From Armatimonadota bacterium (lineage in GTDB: Bacteria; Armatimonadota; Fimbriimonadia; Fimbriimonadales; Fimbriimonadaceae): a DNA stretch of 64,000 bases. Below, in pieces: positions 7,783-15,127 of the stretch. The stretch spans positions 372,001 through 436,000 of the forward strand of contig JAEURN010000008.1 in assembly GCA_016789105.1 (NCBI GenBank), read 5' to 3'. The notes under the pieces were generated by a model that was given only the letters and a program-made list of their open reading frames with translations, made no database searches and had not been told where the DNA came from. Position 1 is the first letter of the stretch; each line of letters starts with the position of its first letter. The position numbers and the translations under genes were made by a program.

Positions 7783-8028
7783 TTAAAGGGTTGCGGCAGT
7801 CGCCGGCTTGTCTTTACCTGCGCAGCAATCCGATTTGGATTCGACCGCGACCGGCTTGGCTTTGCTACAGCAATCCGATTTGGCATCCACGGCAGCGGCG
7901 GCCGGGGCAGAAACCACTGACTGGCCGGACTTGTGGCATTTGGCTTCCGGTGCGGTCATGGCACTCACTGCGATGGCGGCCCCGGTCAGGGCGACAATGG
8001 TGGCAATGGGCGCGATGAGTTTCTTCAT
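7783..8028 (-). CDS. Small secreted Cys-rich protein with repeated KSDCC motif
   Basis: An 81-residue protein not assigned to a family. It begins with a clear signal peptide (MKKLIAPIATIVALTGAAIA), followed by AKCHKSG and two near-identical blocks, AKSDCCSKAKP and SKSDCCAGKDK, in an Ala/Lys-rich background. The vicinal cysteines could bind a metal or form disulfides outside the cytoplasm; this is inference. AAGG precedes the ATG closely. It lies downstream of metK on the same strand but separated by 129 bases and a hairpin. Confidence 0.6.
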   Translation of the reverse strand: MKKLIAPIATIVALTGAAIAVSAMTAPEAKCHKSGQSVVSAPAAAAVDAKSDCCSKAKPVAVESKSDCCAGKDKPATAATL

Positions 8029-9930: not shown

Positions 9931-10656
9931 ATGGAAAGGGGCCTTTACGCAGCGGCGACGGGGATGAACATCGCCGATCAGTGGATTTCCACGATCAGCA
10001 ACAACCTTGCCAACGCCTCCACCACCGCCTACAAGCGCGACGTGCTGGCATTCAACGAAGCCTACGAACGCCAATTGACGTCGGAAGACGGCAGCAAAGT
10101 CGGCAACCTGGGTGTCGGGCCAGAGGCCTACCGCGTCATCACCGTTTGGGAACACGGGGCGGTGACCCCCACCGGCAACCCCTTTGACATCTCCATCGGC
10201 AGCAACCGCGCCCTGTTCAAAGTCTCGACGCCGGAAGGGGAAGCATACAGTCGCAACGGCGCCCTCTCCGTCAGCCCCGACAACCAGCTCTGCACCTCGA
10301 CGGGCGGGTTGGTGCTTGGCACGGATGGCAATCCCATCCGCATCACGTCCGGCCAATTAGCGATCGACCGCAACGGGACGGTTTCCATCGACGGCAAAAC
10401 GGTCGGCCAAATCGGCTTCTACGCCGGCACCTTTTCCAAAATCGGGGACGGGAACTACGCCTCCACCGATGCGGCTCCGGTCGCGGCAACCGAAGCCGGC
10501 GTGCAACAAGGATTTATTGAAGGAAGCAACGTCAACGTGGTCGAAGAAATGATCGCGATGGTGAAGCTGAACCGCGCCTTTGAGCTGGCCCAAAAATCAG
10601 CCCAAAGCCAAGACGACTCGACACAACGATTGATCGGCATCCTCCAAGGACGTTAA
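9931..10656 (+). CDS. flgF: Flagellar basal-body rod protein FlgF
   Basis: A 241-residue rod protein. The N-terminal helix has the FlgF/FlgG rod motif (GLYAAATGMNIADQWISTISNNLANASTTAYKRD), split here by the usual ANNLAN-like turn. A central beta domain with GSNRALFKVSTPEGEAYSRNGALS follows, and the C-terminal helix (GSNVNVVEEMIAMVKLNRAFELAQK) packs against the N-terminal one. It is the first gene of an 11-gene flagellar operon, probably read from the sigma-28-like site just upstream. FlgF forms the proximal part of the distal rod and is exported by the flagellar type III apparatus, hence no Sec signal. FlgF versus FlgG is decided by order and by the better FlgG match of the next gene. Confidence 0.88.
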   Translation: MERGLYAAATGMNIADQWISTISNNLANASTTAYKRDVLAFNEAYERQLTSEDGSKVGNLGVGPEAYRVITVWEHGAVTPTGNPFDISIGSNRALFKVSTPEGEAYSRNGALSVSPDNQLCTSTGGLVLGTDGNPIRITSGQLAIDRNGTVSIDGKTVGQIGFYAGTFSKIGDGNYASTDAAPVAATEAGVQQGFIEGSNVNVVEEMIAMVKLNRAFELAQKSAQSQDDSTQRLIGILQGR

Positions 10657-10778: not shown

Positions 10779-11567
10779 ATGATGAGAGCACTCAACACCG
10801 CGGGAACCGGAATGGTCTCCCAACAAATGAACTTGGACGTCATTGCCAACAACCTGGCTAACGTCAACACGACCGCATTCAAAGGCCAGCGGGCCGAGTT
10901 CCAAGACTTGATGTACCAAAACATCTCGGCTTCCGGGGCCGCCAACGGGGATAGCGCCAAGCTGCCCCAGTCGCTCCAAGTCGGTTTGGGGTCCCGGTTT
11001 GCGGCATCCACCACAAACCTGCAGACCGGGTCACCGCAAATCACCGGCAACCCGACCGACCTGGCCATCAACGGCAACGGCTACTTCCAAGTCCAAATGG
11101 GAGATGGCACCACGGCCTACACTCGCGACGGTGGATTCAAAACCGACTCGAACGGCCTCATGGTCACCAGTAACGGCAACCCGTTGATCCCCAATATCTC
11201 GATCCCCAACGGAGCCCGCGCATTGACGATTTCACCCGAAGGGTTCGTGAGCGCCATTTTGCCGGGCAACAACGACCCCACCGAACTCGGGCAGATCCAG
11301 CTCGCCTTGTTTAGCAACCCGGCCGGCCTCACCCGGGCTGGCGAGAACCTCTACCTGGCCGGCGGATCCAGCGGCGATGCCACCGTCGTCACGCCGGGTC
11401 AAGAAGGGAGCGGCACCCTGCTGCAATCCCACCTGGAAGGCTCCAATGTCCAGGTGGTGGAAGAGATGGTTAAGATGATCGCCGCCCAGCGCGCTTACGA
11501 AATCAACTCCAAAGCGATCCAAACCTCGGACGACATGCTGTCTGTCCTCAACAACCTCAAGCGGTAA
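10779..11567 (+). CDS. flgG: Flagellar distal rod protein FlgG
   Basis: A 262-residue protein of standard FlgG length. It has the full N-terminal rod motif (ALNTAGTGMVSQQMNLDVIANNLANVNTTAFK in two pieces), the central INGNGYFQV and YTRDGGFKTDSNG segments, GQIQLALFSNPAGL, and the C-terminal EGSNVQVVEEMVKMIAAQRAYEINSK helix. FlgG builds the distal rod that crosses the P and L rings encoded just downstream. The ATG at 10779 has AGGAA 13 bases upstream, a distant ribosome-binding site. Its middle domain is strikingly mirrored in the next gene. Confidence 0.95.
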   Translation: MMRALNTAGTGMVSQQMNLDVIANNLANVNTTAFKGQRAEFQDLMYQNISASGAANGDSAKLPQSLQVGLGSRFAASTTNLQTGSPQITGNPTDLAINGNGYFQVQMGDGTTAYTRDGGFKTDSNGLMVTSNGNPLIPNISIPNGARALTISPEGFVSAILPGNNDPTELGQIQLALFSNPAGLTRAGENLYLAGGSSGDATVVTPGQEGSGTLLQSHLEGSNVQVVEEMVKMIAAQRAYEINSKAIQTSDDMLSVLNNLKR

Positions 11568-11572
11568 TCCAA

Positions 11573-12811
11573 ATGGTCTCTTTGATCTGCACCCTCCTGC
11601 TCGGCTCGGTGGCCGGTGCCCCGATCCAGGTCGATGGCGACGGCTACCTGCGGTTCGCCAAAGATGGCGCGCTGGTTTATGCCAAGCATGCCGAACTGAC
11701 TTGGAAAAACGGCCTCGTGGTAAGCCAAGATGGCGACCCGGTCTGGCCCAAAATCCGTGTCGAACAAGAACCTGCGGCCATCCAGGTCGACCTGAAAGGG
11801 AGGGTGACCGCCATCTTCCCAGACCGCCAAATCGAAGCCGGGAGACTGGTGGTCGCCCTCTTCCCAGACGACATCCGGCCCGTTGTCAGCGGCAACTACC
11901 TGAAACTGTTTGGCGACGGTGAACCGGCGGAGCCGGGCCAAGGTCTCGCTGGGGTCATCCGCCCATGGCAGCCAAGTGGCCAGCCAGCCGGACAGGGCGA
12001 GCAGAGCTTTGTCAAAGTGCATTTCGACCAAAACGGCGAACCGGGAGGCGAGAGGACGGAAATCACCGTCTCCAATCTGGCGGCACACAAGACCGATTAC
12101 CAAGGCGACGATGCCTGGATCGCCCAAGGGGGCATTGAAATCGCCTTCCCCGCGCGGTGCCAGATCTCCGGCAATGCCATGGCTTTGGGGGACTTGGCCG
12201 ACATCTTTGCCAGCCCCGCCGACCGGGCAGTTTTGGAAAAACTCGACATGGGCAACCCGCCCGTGTTTGGGGCCCCGCGGACTTATGACCGCAATTGGGT
12301 GATCGCCCAACTCAAAGGCGCCGGGTACCAGGCCGCCAAAATCCGGATCATCGGCCCCGTCAGGCTGACCATCGAGCGGATCGGGCAAACCGTCACGCAA
12401 AAGATGTTCGAAGATGCCGCCACCGCCGGAATCGCCAGCCAATACCCGGACTTTGAACCGGAATCGGCCAAACCGGTGCCCGACCTGCAGGCGCCCGCCG
12501 GAAAGTTGGAGCTCATCGTCGAAAACGTGGCCAAATCGGGCAAGGCGCTCAGCGTGACAGTTGCCGCCTATATCGATGGCAAGCGGATCAATTCCCGCAC
12601 GCTCTCCTTCACCAATGCGGCGGCCCCGATCTCGGTTAAACCGGGTGACGAGGTGACCGTTTGCGTGCAAAGCGGCCCCGTGCAAATCGAATCGACCGGC
12701 AAGGTCAAGAAAGTCGACCCGGTCTCGGGTCAAGTCACGGTCGAATTGTCGACGGGCAAAACCCTTGTCGGCCGTTGGACCAAGTCCGGAAAAGTAGAGG
12801 TCAAGCTATGA
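11573..12811 (+). CDS. flgA: FlgA-like P-ring chaperone fused to a FlgG-like domain
   Basis: A 412-residue protein, much longer than a typical FlgA (about 220). After a signal peptide (MVSLICTLLLGSVAGA), residues about 18-115 follow the middle domain of FlgG step by step: VDGDGYLRF against INGNGYFQV, GLVVSQDGDPVWPKI against GLMVTSNGNPLIPNI, and GRLVVALFPDD against GQIQLALFSNP. The rod-forming terminal helices are missing. Residues about 140-280 are FlgA-like, and about 300-412 are the SAF-type C-terminal domain (VKPGDEVTVCVQSGPVQIESTGKV). FlgA chaperones P-ring assembly in the periplasm, and flgI lies two genes on. It overlaps flgH by four bases. The fusion is the odd feature. Confidence 0.75.
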   Translation: MVSLICTLLLGSVAGAPIQVDGDGYLRFAKDGALVYAKHAELTWKNGLVVSQDGDPVWPKIRVEQEPAAIQVDLKGRVTAIFPDRQIEAGRLVVALFPDDIRPVVSGNYLKLFGDGEPAEPGQGLAGVIRPWQPSGQPAGQGEQSFVKVHFDQNGEPGGERTEITVSNLAAHKTDYQGDDAWIAQGGIEIAFPARCQISGNAMALGDLADIFASPADRAVLEKLDMGNPPVFGAPRTYDRNWVIAQLKGAGYQAAKIRIIGPVRLTIERIGQTVTQKMFEDAATAGIASQYPDFEPESAKPVPDLQAPAGKLELIVENVAKSGKALSVTVAAYIDGKRINSRTLSFTNAAAPISVKPGDEVTVCVQSGPVQIESTGKVKKVDPVSGQVTVELSTGKTLVGRWTKSGKVEVKL

Positions 12812-13428
12812 AAACACGTCTGATTCTTATCGGGCTCTTCGCTTTGGGGACGATTTGTTGGTCCCATGCCGACCAAAGTTCCCAAAACCAAGGCGGCAAA
12901 GAAAATGCCGGATCGATTTATGGAGGTTCGGTCAAGAATCCTTTTATTGACGATGTTGCCCGCGGCAAGGGAGATGTGGTGATGATCCTTATCGACGAAC
13001 AGTCGGTCAGCACATTTGCCGCATCGACTACCGCCAACAAATCTGACTCCACATCGGTGCAGCCCAACATCCTAACCGGATTCCTGACCCAGCTTTTCGG
13101 GCCGCTCAGCAACGGGGCCACTAGCAGTACCTCCGGCGACGGCAACACCAGCCAGAACTCCAAGATGACGGCCAAGATGAGTGCGGTCGTCAAGGACGTG
13201 CTCCCCAACGGGACGCTTGTAATCGAAGGCCGCCGGTCGCTGGTCACCAACAAAGAAACTCAGACTTTTGTCCTCAGCGGCCTCATCCGCCAGCGGGACA
13301 TCAAACCCGACAACACGATTGCCAGCACAAAAATCGCCGAGGCGGAAATCAAGATGGAAGGCAAAGGCCAAATCAGCCAAAGGCAGCGCAAAGGCGTGCT
13401 CACGACCATCCTGGACTGGTTGTTCTAA
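12808..13428 (+). CDS. flgH: Flagellar L-ring protein FlgH
   Basis: A 206-residue protein forming the outer-membrane L ring. Family features: GSIYGG near residue 33, RGKGDVVMILIDEQS, a long Ser/Thr-rich insertion, then VLPNGTLVIEGRRSL, VLSGLIRQRDIKPDNTI and a C-terminal GVLTTILDWLF. The ATG at 12808 overlaps the flgA stop (ATGA). FlgH is normally a lipoprotein; here the signal region ends LGTICWSHAD, whose only Cys has Ile at -1, not Gly or Ala, so lipidation is doubtful. Presence of L and P rings argues for an outer membrane. Confidence 0.93.
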   Translation: MKTRLILIGLFALGTICWSHADQSSQNQGGKENAGSIYGGSVKNPFIDDVARGKGDVVMILIDEQSVSTFAASTTANKSDSTSVQPNILTGFLTQLFGPLSNGATSSTSGDGNTSQNSKMTAKMSAVVKDVLPNGTLVIEGRRSLVTNKETQTFVLSGLIRQRDIKPDNTIASTKIAEAEIKMEGKGQISQRQRKGVLTTILDWLF

Positions 13429-14660
13429 TGAAGAAATTGCTTTTCACCTTGCTTTTAGCGGCGGTTTGCGCGGCGGCCCTGGGCCAGAATGGCACCACCG
13501 GTCAAACCGGTGCCGCTGCCGCCAAGCCGGACACGAAATCCGAATCCCAGGCTCGCAAAGAGCAAGAGGATCTGGAAAAGCGGCGCAGTGCCGCCATCCG
13601 CAATGCAGAAACCAACGGCATCCCGGTTGAGATTTCGGCCATCGGCGGATTCCGGGGCTCGCGGTCAAACGTGATCTTGGGTTATGGGTTGGTGGTCGGG
13701 CTCAACGGCACCGGTGATTCCAAACAGATCGCGGCGACCAACACGTCCATGGCCAACGCCCTGTCCCGATGGGGGACGATGGTCGATCCCGCCAATTTCA
13801 CGGCCAAGAACATCGCCATTGTCAGCGTCACGGCGGAGCTGCCTGCTTTTGCCGCTCCGGGCCGCAAGGTCGATGTGACGGTTCAGAGCCTGGGTGACGC
13901 CAAGAGCCTGGAAGGGGGATTCTTGCTCCCGACTTCCCTAGGGGCTATGGCCGATAACACGGTGATTTACGCCATGGCAAGCGGCGGCCTGAGCATCGGT
14001 GGGTTCAATGCCGGCAATTCGGGCAGCTCGGTGCGCCAAAACCACCCGACGGTGGCCCGCATTCCAAACGGGGCAGATATCCAAAAGGGAGTGGACACCC
14101 AGTTTGTGTTTGGCGGCAACATCATCTATTTCGACCTGGATCAGCCTGATTTCACAACCGTCCAGCGCGTCCGGGACGCCATTGCCCGCAGTTTCCCCAG
14201 TCTGGGAGTTTCGGCGATTGACGGCGTCACCGTGGCGATCACCCTCGACGACCCGAATGATGCGGTCGATGTGATCAGCCAGGTTCAAAAATTGGAAGTG
14301 TTCGCCAATACCGAACCCACCGTCGTCATCAACGAACGGACCGGCACCATTGTGGTCGGCGGTAACGTCCGGCTCGGCCCAGCCCTAATCGCCCACGGAT
14401 CGCTGCGGGTGACGATCGACACCGAGTTCGTGACGAGCCAGCCGGGGCCGTTCAGCCAAGGCCAAACCACGGTGACCCCCGCGACGTTGACCAATGCCAA
14501 CGAACAGCCGCCCCAAGTGGTCGTGGTTGCCCCCAATGCCACATTAGACGACCTCGCCAAGATTTTCCAAGCCATGGATGTTTCCGCGCGGGACATCATT
14601 GCCATCATCCAGGCCCTTGCCCAGCAAGGGGCGCTCAAAGCAAGGGTGAAAATCCAATGA
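13428..14660 (+). CDS. flgI: Flagellar P-ring protein FlgI
   Basis: A 410-residue periplasmic protein forming the P ring around the rod. A signal peptide (MKKLLFTLLLAAVCAAALGQ) is followed by about 40 polar, charged residues rich in Gln, Glu and Lys before the family core begins at ISAIGGFRGSRSNVILGYGL. Canonical blocks include VVGLNGTGDS, LPAFAAPGRKVDVTV, LGDAKSLEGGFLL and the C-terminal VVVAPNATLDDLAKIFQAMD. Standard FlgI has almost no spacer between signal and core, so the N-terminal extension is unusual. Its start overlaps the flgH stop by one base. Confidence 0.95.
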   Translation: MKKLLFTLLLAAVCAAALGQNGTTGQTGAAAAKPDTKSESQARKEQEDLEKRRSAAIRNAETNGIPVEISAIGGFRGSRSNVILGYGLVVGLNGTGDSKQIAATNTSMANALSRWGTMVDPANFTAKNIAIVSVTAELPAFAAPGRKVDVTVQSLGDAKSLEGGFLLPTSLGAMADNTVIYAMASGGLSIGGFNAGNSGSSVRQNHPTVARIPNGADIQKGVDTQFVFGGNIIYFDLDQPDFTTVQRVRDAIARSFPSLGVSAIDGVTVAITLDDPNDAVDVISQVQKLEVFANTEPTVVINERTGTIVVGGNVRLGPALIAHGSLRVTIDTEFVTSQPGPFSQGQTTVTPATLTNANEQPPQVVVVAPNATLDDLAKIFQAMDVSARDIIAIIQALAQQGALKARVKIQ

Positions 14661-15127
14661 CGCCTGTCGCCAACAACCGGTACCGGCTGCGGGAAGACTT
14701 TGCCCAGGGGCTTGCCGACCAGTTGCAACCCAAGCTCGGCCAACCGGGATCGGAGACCCGAAAGATCATGGAAAAGGCGTTTTCGCCGATCCTGACCGAC
14801 GGCAAGATCGACATCGAAAAGCTGCCCGAAGCCGCCCAAAAGGAACTCCACAAACTCCAGGAAGCCAGCGAGCAGTTCGAATCGTTCTTTGTCAAAAAGC
14901 TGCTGTCGCAAATGCGCCAGACCAGCTTGTCCCAAAACAGCACGCCCATGATGGATTTTGCCAAAGACACCATGGATCAGGCTGTCGCCGACCAGGCCGC
15001 CAAGGGTCAATCCACCCTCGGCATCGCCAAAACCGTTTTCATGGCCCAAGCCGCCACGGTTGTCCAACAAGAAATGGGCAAGCGGGCTGCCGAAGTCGCC
15101 TCCACTCCATCAGGGAACAAATCATGA
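14657..15127 (+). CDS. flgJ: FlgJ-type rod-binding protein (no muramidase domain)
   Basis: A 156-residue protein whose residues about 65-140 match the rod-capping domain of FlgJ (EASEQFESFFVKKLLSQMRQ, then STPMMDFAKDTMDQAVADQAA). It ends there, without the C-terminal peptidoglycan hydrolase domain found in enterobacterial FlgJ. Single-domain FlgJ proteins are common outside gamma- and betaproteobacteria; another hydrolase must open the wall for the rod. It overlaps both neighbours by four bases (ATGA), showing tight translational coupling. Confidence 0.87.
   Translation: MTPVANNRYRLREDFAQGLADQLQPKLGQPGSETRKIMEKAFSPILTDGKIDIEKLPEAAQKELHKLQEASEQFESFFVKKLLSQMRQTSLSQNSTPMMDFAKDTMDQAVADQAAKGQSTLGIAKTVFMAQAATVVQQEMGKRAAEVASTPSGNKS

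Follow-up and report, generated by a model that had tools for sequence, protein, structure and literature searches.

The FlgA protein encoded in the window (the whole 64,000-nucleotide stretch of Armatimonadota DNA that we analysed) carries the outer (D1) domain of FlgG, the distal rod protein, joined through a flexible linker to the chaperone core. This fusion is a lineage-restricted variant of FlgA that has a single origin and is under selection. The flgA reading frame occupies positions 11573-12811 of the plus strand and encodes 412 amino acids, as initially annotated, with no alternative in-frame ATG, GTG or TTG upstream of the start in the same open frame. Five bases separate the flgG stop from the flgA start, and the flgA stop and the flgH start share the bases ATGA, within the gene order flgF-flgG-flgA-flgH-flgI (Table 1). 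The other neighbours encode a FlgJ-like rod-binding protein, flgN, flgK and a flagellin-family protein whose gene is probably flgL. The genome contains a single ChapFlgA match.

Table 1. Positions of FlgA segments and adjacent flagellar genes in the window
Feature	Position	Strand	Evidence and remarks
flgF	9931..10656	+	TIGR02490 best match, E=4.3e-45, yet under its cut-off
flgG (family from which the fused domain stems)	10779..11567	+	TIGR02488, 336.7 bits; BLASTP; D1 core at about 11055-11426
Hydrophobic leader of FlgA, residues 1-16 (MVSLICTLLLGSVAGA)	11573..11620	+	Sequence; AlphaFold confidence low
FlgG-type D1 domain of FlgA, residues 17-131	11621..11965	+	BLASTP, Pfam, PDB profile search, AlphaFold, Foldseek
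FlgA linker, residues 132-185	11966..12127	+	Disordered at 137-168, pLDDT below 50
FlgA core without SAF domain, residues 186-412	12128..12808	+	PF13144; Foldseek 3vjp, 3tee
D3-like C-terminal part of the FlgA core, residues ~349-412	12617-12808	+	PF13144
flgH (L-ring)	12808..13428	+	PF02107; start overlaps flgA stop (ATGA)
flgI (P-ring), FlgA client	13428..14660	+	PF02119 from residue 69; N-terminal extension before the conserved domain

Sequence comparison and structure prediction both identified residues 17-131 of FlgA as a FlgG D1 domain. BLASTP aligned FlgA residues 13-129 with residues 88-214 of the adjacent FlgG at 29% identity (E=7e-12); the match to FlgF was much weaker (E=0.005). The Pfam family for the D1 domain of FlgE, FlgF and FlgG (PF22692) scored 27.4 bits over residues 20-80 (cut-off 27), and the FlgG family TIGR02488 matched at E=1.1e-6. 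A single-sequence search of the PDB with FlgA retrieved FlgG alone (8z5u, 1e-5), and a profile built from 55 fused relatives retrieved FlgG chains at 1.6e-13 and Salmonella FlgA at 1e-6. In the AlphaFold2 model, built with a 55-row alignment of fused relatives, pLDDT was about 96 over residues 21-130. Foldseek placed FlgG at the top of its PDB matches (8z5u, E=3.1e-7 over 131 columns), with a TM score of 0.71, normalised to the target, for the FlgG core fragment 6jf2. The initial annotation had noted a resemblance to the central FlgG domain over residues of about 18-115; that resemblance was confirmed, the predicted structure being a FlgG D1 fold, and it extends to about residue 131, taking in the PGxxGxG turn of FlgG.

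The captured stretch coincides with the D1 core of FlgG (residues 92-216 of the Salmonella protein; PMC6681337) and takes in neither the D0 helices nor the L-stretch or beta-stretch. Neither PF00460 nor PF06429, which represent the rod helices, matched FlgA, in keeping with the earlier statement that both helices are missing. As it has no rod helices and only a 16-residue leader ahead of D1, the protein is not a FlgG. Compared with FlgG D1 (6JF2, 7CBM, 8Z5U; PF22692, TIGR02488), the FlgA domain shares the predicted fold over about 115 residues, together with the core glycines and prolines and the PGxxGxG end. It differs in that D0 helices and L-stretch are absent from the protein and several FlgG-conserved motifs have been lost, in that the domain is neutral rather than negative and has new arginines, and in its placement within a presumed Sec-exported protein.

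The rest of the protein is an FlgA with some unusual properties. PF13144 (ChapFlgA) matched residues 349-410 with 27.2 bits (cut-off 23.8), the core matched Salmonella FlgA in Foldseek (3vjp, E=1.5e-4), and the stricter cut-off of NCBIfam TIGR03170 was missed (24.5 versus 54.65). The model had pLDDT values mostly above 90 from residue 180 onward, and its pTM of 0.56 fits two rigid parts whose relative orientation is free. Like known FlgA chaperones (Salmonella 3TEE, 3VJP and 3VKI; Thermotoga maritima 3FRN; PF13144), the window protein has the C-terminal Pfam match and the core fold detected by Foldseek, is encoded between flgG and flgH-flgI, and begins with what is presumed to be an N-terminal export leader. 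Unlike them, it has a FlgG D1 and a disordered linker ahead of the core, is without a SAF (beta-clip) domain, starts with an unusually short, uncharged leader and scores under the TIGR03170 cut-off.

The leader had been described as a Sec signal replacing the rod helices. A hydrophobic leader is indeed present, but it is atypical, comprising 16-17 residues with no positive charge; we presume that it is a short Sec signal of this uncharged kind and infer that it is cleaved. Fused FlgA proteins have a median of 17 residues before D1, with ordinary signal peptides in a minority. Lysine or arginine was absent from the first eight residues in 66 of 75 fused FlgA proteins and in 8 of 44 unfused ones.

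None of the 90 FlgA proteins of the window's class matched SAF. All 30 of the other FlgA proteins sampled have the domain (Pfam included), a sample that favours SAF-type proteins because its members were chosen by PF13144 score. Short FlgA proteins also occur elsewhere in the phylum, in genomes G062 and G265, where they are probably SAF-less, judged by length. We treated the SAF domain as common in FlgA but not defining. The extra D0 domain of Thermotoga FlgA was considered as a counterpart of the fused domain but found no support: the fused-family profile gave no match to 3FRN at E values up to 10, whereas an unfused FlgA of the phylum did match 3FRN.

To map the distribution of the fusion, we searched the FlgA proteins from the 90 genomes of the window's class with a D1 profile built from FlgG only. 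The domain was present in 75 of the 90, with marked differences between families: 69 of 71 in f1, 5 of 6 in f2, the single member of f4, 0 of 11 in f3 and 0 of 1 in f5. One protein, L081, was weak in the D1 profile (E=0.037), yet over residues 5-141 it shares 43% identity with the window protein. Three genomes within f1 and f2 (L076, L080 and L100) cleanly lack D1, their core being preceded immediately by an ordinary signal peptide. Because these genomes lost D1 cleanly, the domain is not essential everywhere. Neither SAF nor D1 is present in f3 and f5, which indicates that SAF loss and D1 gain were separate events. In most f3 genomes (L105, L111, L113-L115, L117-L119, L121 and L122), flgA, without D1, lies away from flgG, in the sense that no flgG was found within the fetched flanks.

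Outside the class, D1 was found in none of 30 FlgA proteins sampled elsewhere in the phylum. Additional genomes checked from other families encode FlgG D1 and FlgA in separate frames, and the long frames in G010, G037, G054, G265 and G062 likewise resolved into separate genes or frames for the two. A pattern scan of genome contigs yielded one locus, from a Synergistaceae genome, in which the FlgG-like and FlgA frames are separate. In a 151-genome sample of the phylum to which that genome belongs, there was no D1-FlgA fusion; D1 matches fell mostly in FlgG-sized frames, apart from FlgA or separated from it by a stop. The idea that D1 is a normal part of FlgA in distant phyla thus found no example in the distant genomes sampled, namely this one other phylum. 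No fusion was found in the plasmids scanned. Within the collection of papers searched, none describes such a fusion, which is not proof of absence.

The fused domain derives from FlgG. The FlgG profile outscored the FlgF and FlgE profiles for all 75 fused domains (median bits 35.3 for FlgG, 9.0 for FlgF and 7.1 for FlgE), although the comparison with FlgE is less even, the D1 domain of FlgE being interrupted by another domain; flgF and flgE were rejected as sources. In a tree of 95 D1 domains, which rests on 95 columns and leaves the inner order unresolved, FlgA-D1 formed one group (SH-aLRT 99). This group sits with FlgG, is separated from FlgF (93) and has a stem of 0.99 changes per column. 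A recent local duplication of the window's flgG was also rejected, since the window D1 groups with the other FlgA-D1 domains (99) and its own FlgG is not the nearest.

In fused relatives, and in most unfused ones other than those of f3, only a few bases separate flgA from the flgG gene ahead of it, and this position directly upstream makes duplication of flgG and fusion into flgA the simplest route. The route proposed in the initial annotation, a flgG duplication followed by fusion to flgA, therefore stands as to source and simplicity, but the event did not copy this particular flgG, being old and single. The capture happened once, long ago, near the base of one bacterial order, and was followed by a few clean losses. 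On the FlgA core tree, in which the positions of f4 and f5 are unresolved, the trait requires at least five changes, so losses of D1 are likely.

Purifying selection and conserved columns indicated that D1 is functional rather than debris. In close pairs, dN/dS of D1 was 0.03-0.13, similar to that of the core, and that of the linker was mostly higher. Only three columns were invariant among 55 fused proteins (G22, P59 and G76), all of them in D1. That the fusion is a relic without function is very improbable: three clean losses and a large sequence divergence would fit a relic, but this reading is largely refuted by the purifying selection, by retention of the domain in 75 genomes of three families, by a fold predicted with high confidence and by new near-invariant positions.

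We then compared FlgA-D1 with FlgG column by column, in Salmonella numbering. Kept positions were G99, G101, Y114, G126, G133, P138, G155, G171, P206, G207 and G212, with K/R retained at 116 and G188 retained in half of the proteins. Positions conserved in FlgG and lost in FlgA-D1 were T115, D117, G118, N180, G183, L184, N190, S198 and G199. New strong positions were R104 (93%; R27 of the window FlgA), R172 (77%; R91 of the window FlgA) and R/K200 (80%), and position 203 has become aliphatic. In Salmonella FlgG the ring-facing acids, directed toward FlgI and FlgH, are D109, D154 and E203 (PMC8298488); an acidic residue occupies these three positions in about 60%, 71% and 0% of FlgA-D1 domains and in about 76%, 45% and 37% of the FlgG proteins here. 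The median net charge shifts from -5 in FlgG to 0 in FlgA-D1. FlgA-D1 therefore does not reproduce the rod surface faithfully, and it is very probably not a subunit that polymerises; its pattern resembles that of a domain shifted to a new but conserved contact. D1 is probably no longer able to take part in the rod lattice, given that D0 helices and L-stretch are missing, as are several FlgG motifs.

The way in which FlgA delivers FlgI to the rod and lets go of it has yet to be explained (PMC4895218). In Salmonella, FlgA binds FlgI via its C-terminal domain, the reported dissociation constants being micromolar, and P-ring assembly is blocked when FlgA is locked in a closed form (PMC4895218). 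FlgI uses K63 and K95 to dock on the rod (PMC8298488). By eye, the window FlgI has lysines at both places, and simple motif searches found them in 27 of 47 (K63) and 36 of 47 (K95) relatives.

With this background, we tentatively favour, at somewhat less than even confidence, a reading in which FlgA is a two-handed FlgI chaperone, holding its client with D3 and with a rod-mimicking D1 that the rod later replaces. FlgA would be exported to the periplasm, where its C-terminal domain would hold FlgI as in Salmonella, and the tethered D1 would present a rod-like surface to the inner, rod-facing side of FlgI. D1 could thereby serve as a placeholder that stops FlgI from closing its ring off the rod, to be displaced by real FlgG once that is present. 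A more specific version, in which a tethered dummy of the rod surface occupies the inner face of the bushing during assembly so that ring closure awaits, or is templated by, the true rod, is conceivable but rather doubtful. The timing proposed in the initial annotation, with a mimic templating ring assembly ahead of the rod's arrival, found no support in these data. The retention of two of the three ring-facing acids in most FlgA-D1 domains, alongside the loss of several other FlgG-conserved residues, would count for a rod mimic, as would the FlgG identity and D1-core boundaries of the domain, its single origin, its low dN/dS and the lysines of the window FlgI. The shift in charge from -5 to 0, the aliphatic residue in place of E203 and the conserved new arginines would count against one, as would the three genomes without D1 and D1 distances that follow FlgG more closely than FlgI.

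Those arginines also bear on the strongest competitor of the mimic reading, which ranks only a little below it. Here D1 would bind the growing rod (FlgG) itself, rather than imitate it towards FlgI, and so bring FlgA-bound FlgI into place: R104, R172 and R/K200 would suit the negative rod surface (PMC8298488), and a role for FlgA in piloting FlgI to the rod has been suggested in Salmonella (PMC4895218). The best co-variation of D1 distances was also with FlgG (partial correlation 0.43 versus 0.15 with FlgI), but such co-variation of protein distances is weak; shared ancestry confounds it, and so does the slow evolution of FlgG, the slowest of the proteins. Moreover, FlgG D1-conserved residues that are candidate sites of subunit packing have been lost, which makes ordinary rod-lattice contacts unlikely.

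The much altered D1 surface could also point to another partner or to a structural role, with D1 contacting FlgH, the rod cap, peptidoglycan or another FlgA, or stabilising a SAF-less FlgA. The absence of SAF across the class makes such compensation thinkable. However, f3 and f5 still have flagellar genes although they lack both SAF and D1, and the disordered linker implies that D1 is not stably packed on the core in the model; we consider this explanation unlikely.

Returning to the two-handed chaperone, we think that D1 probably helps to fit the ring to the rod, since selection has kept it. A natural fusion of the chaperone with a ring-facing rod domain hints, from an independent side, at an involvement of the rod surface in what FlgA does. 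FlgA-D1 represents a structural piece of the rod reused within a chaperone, and it offers a compact, testable module for P-ring formation.

Several other features of the region were recorded. FlgI has a charge-rich N-terminal extension of about 40 residues between its signal peptide and conserved domain; we considered it as a partner of D1 and rejected it because its presence is out of step with D1, and it seems to be typical of family f1 and unconnected with the fused domain. The short FlgJ-like protein encoded at 14657-15127 has the rod-binding match alone (23.8 bits, cut-off 25.1), without a muramidase domain. On the minus strand, an 81-amino-acid open frame at 7783-8028 has a signal-peptide-like start, two SDCC motifs and no Pfam match. 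A 412-amino-acid open frame antisense to flgA, at 11495-12733 of the minus strand, is probably a by-product of base composition.
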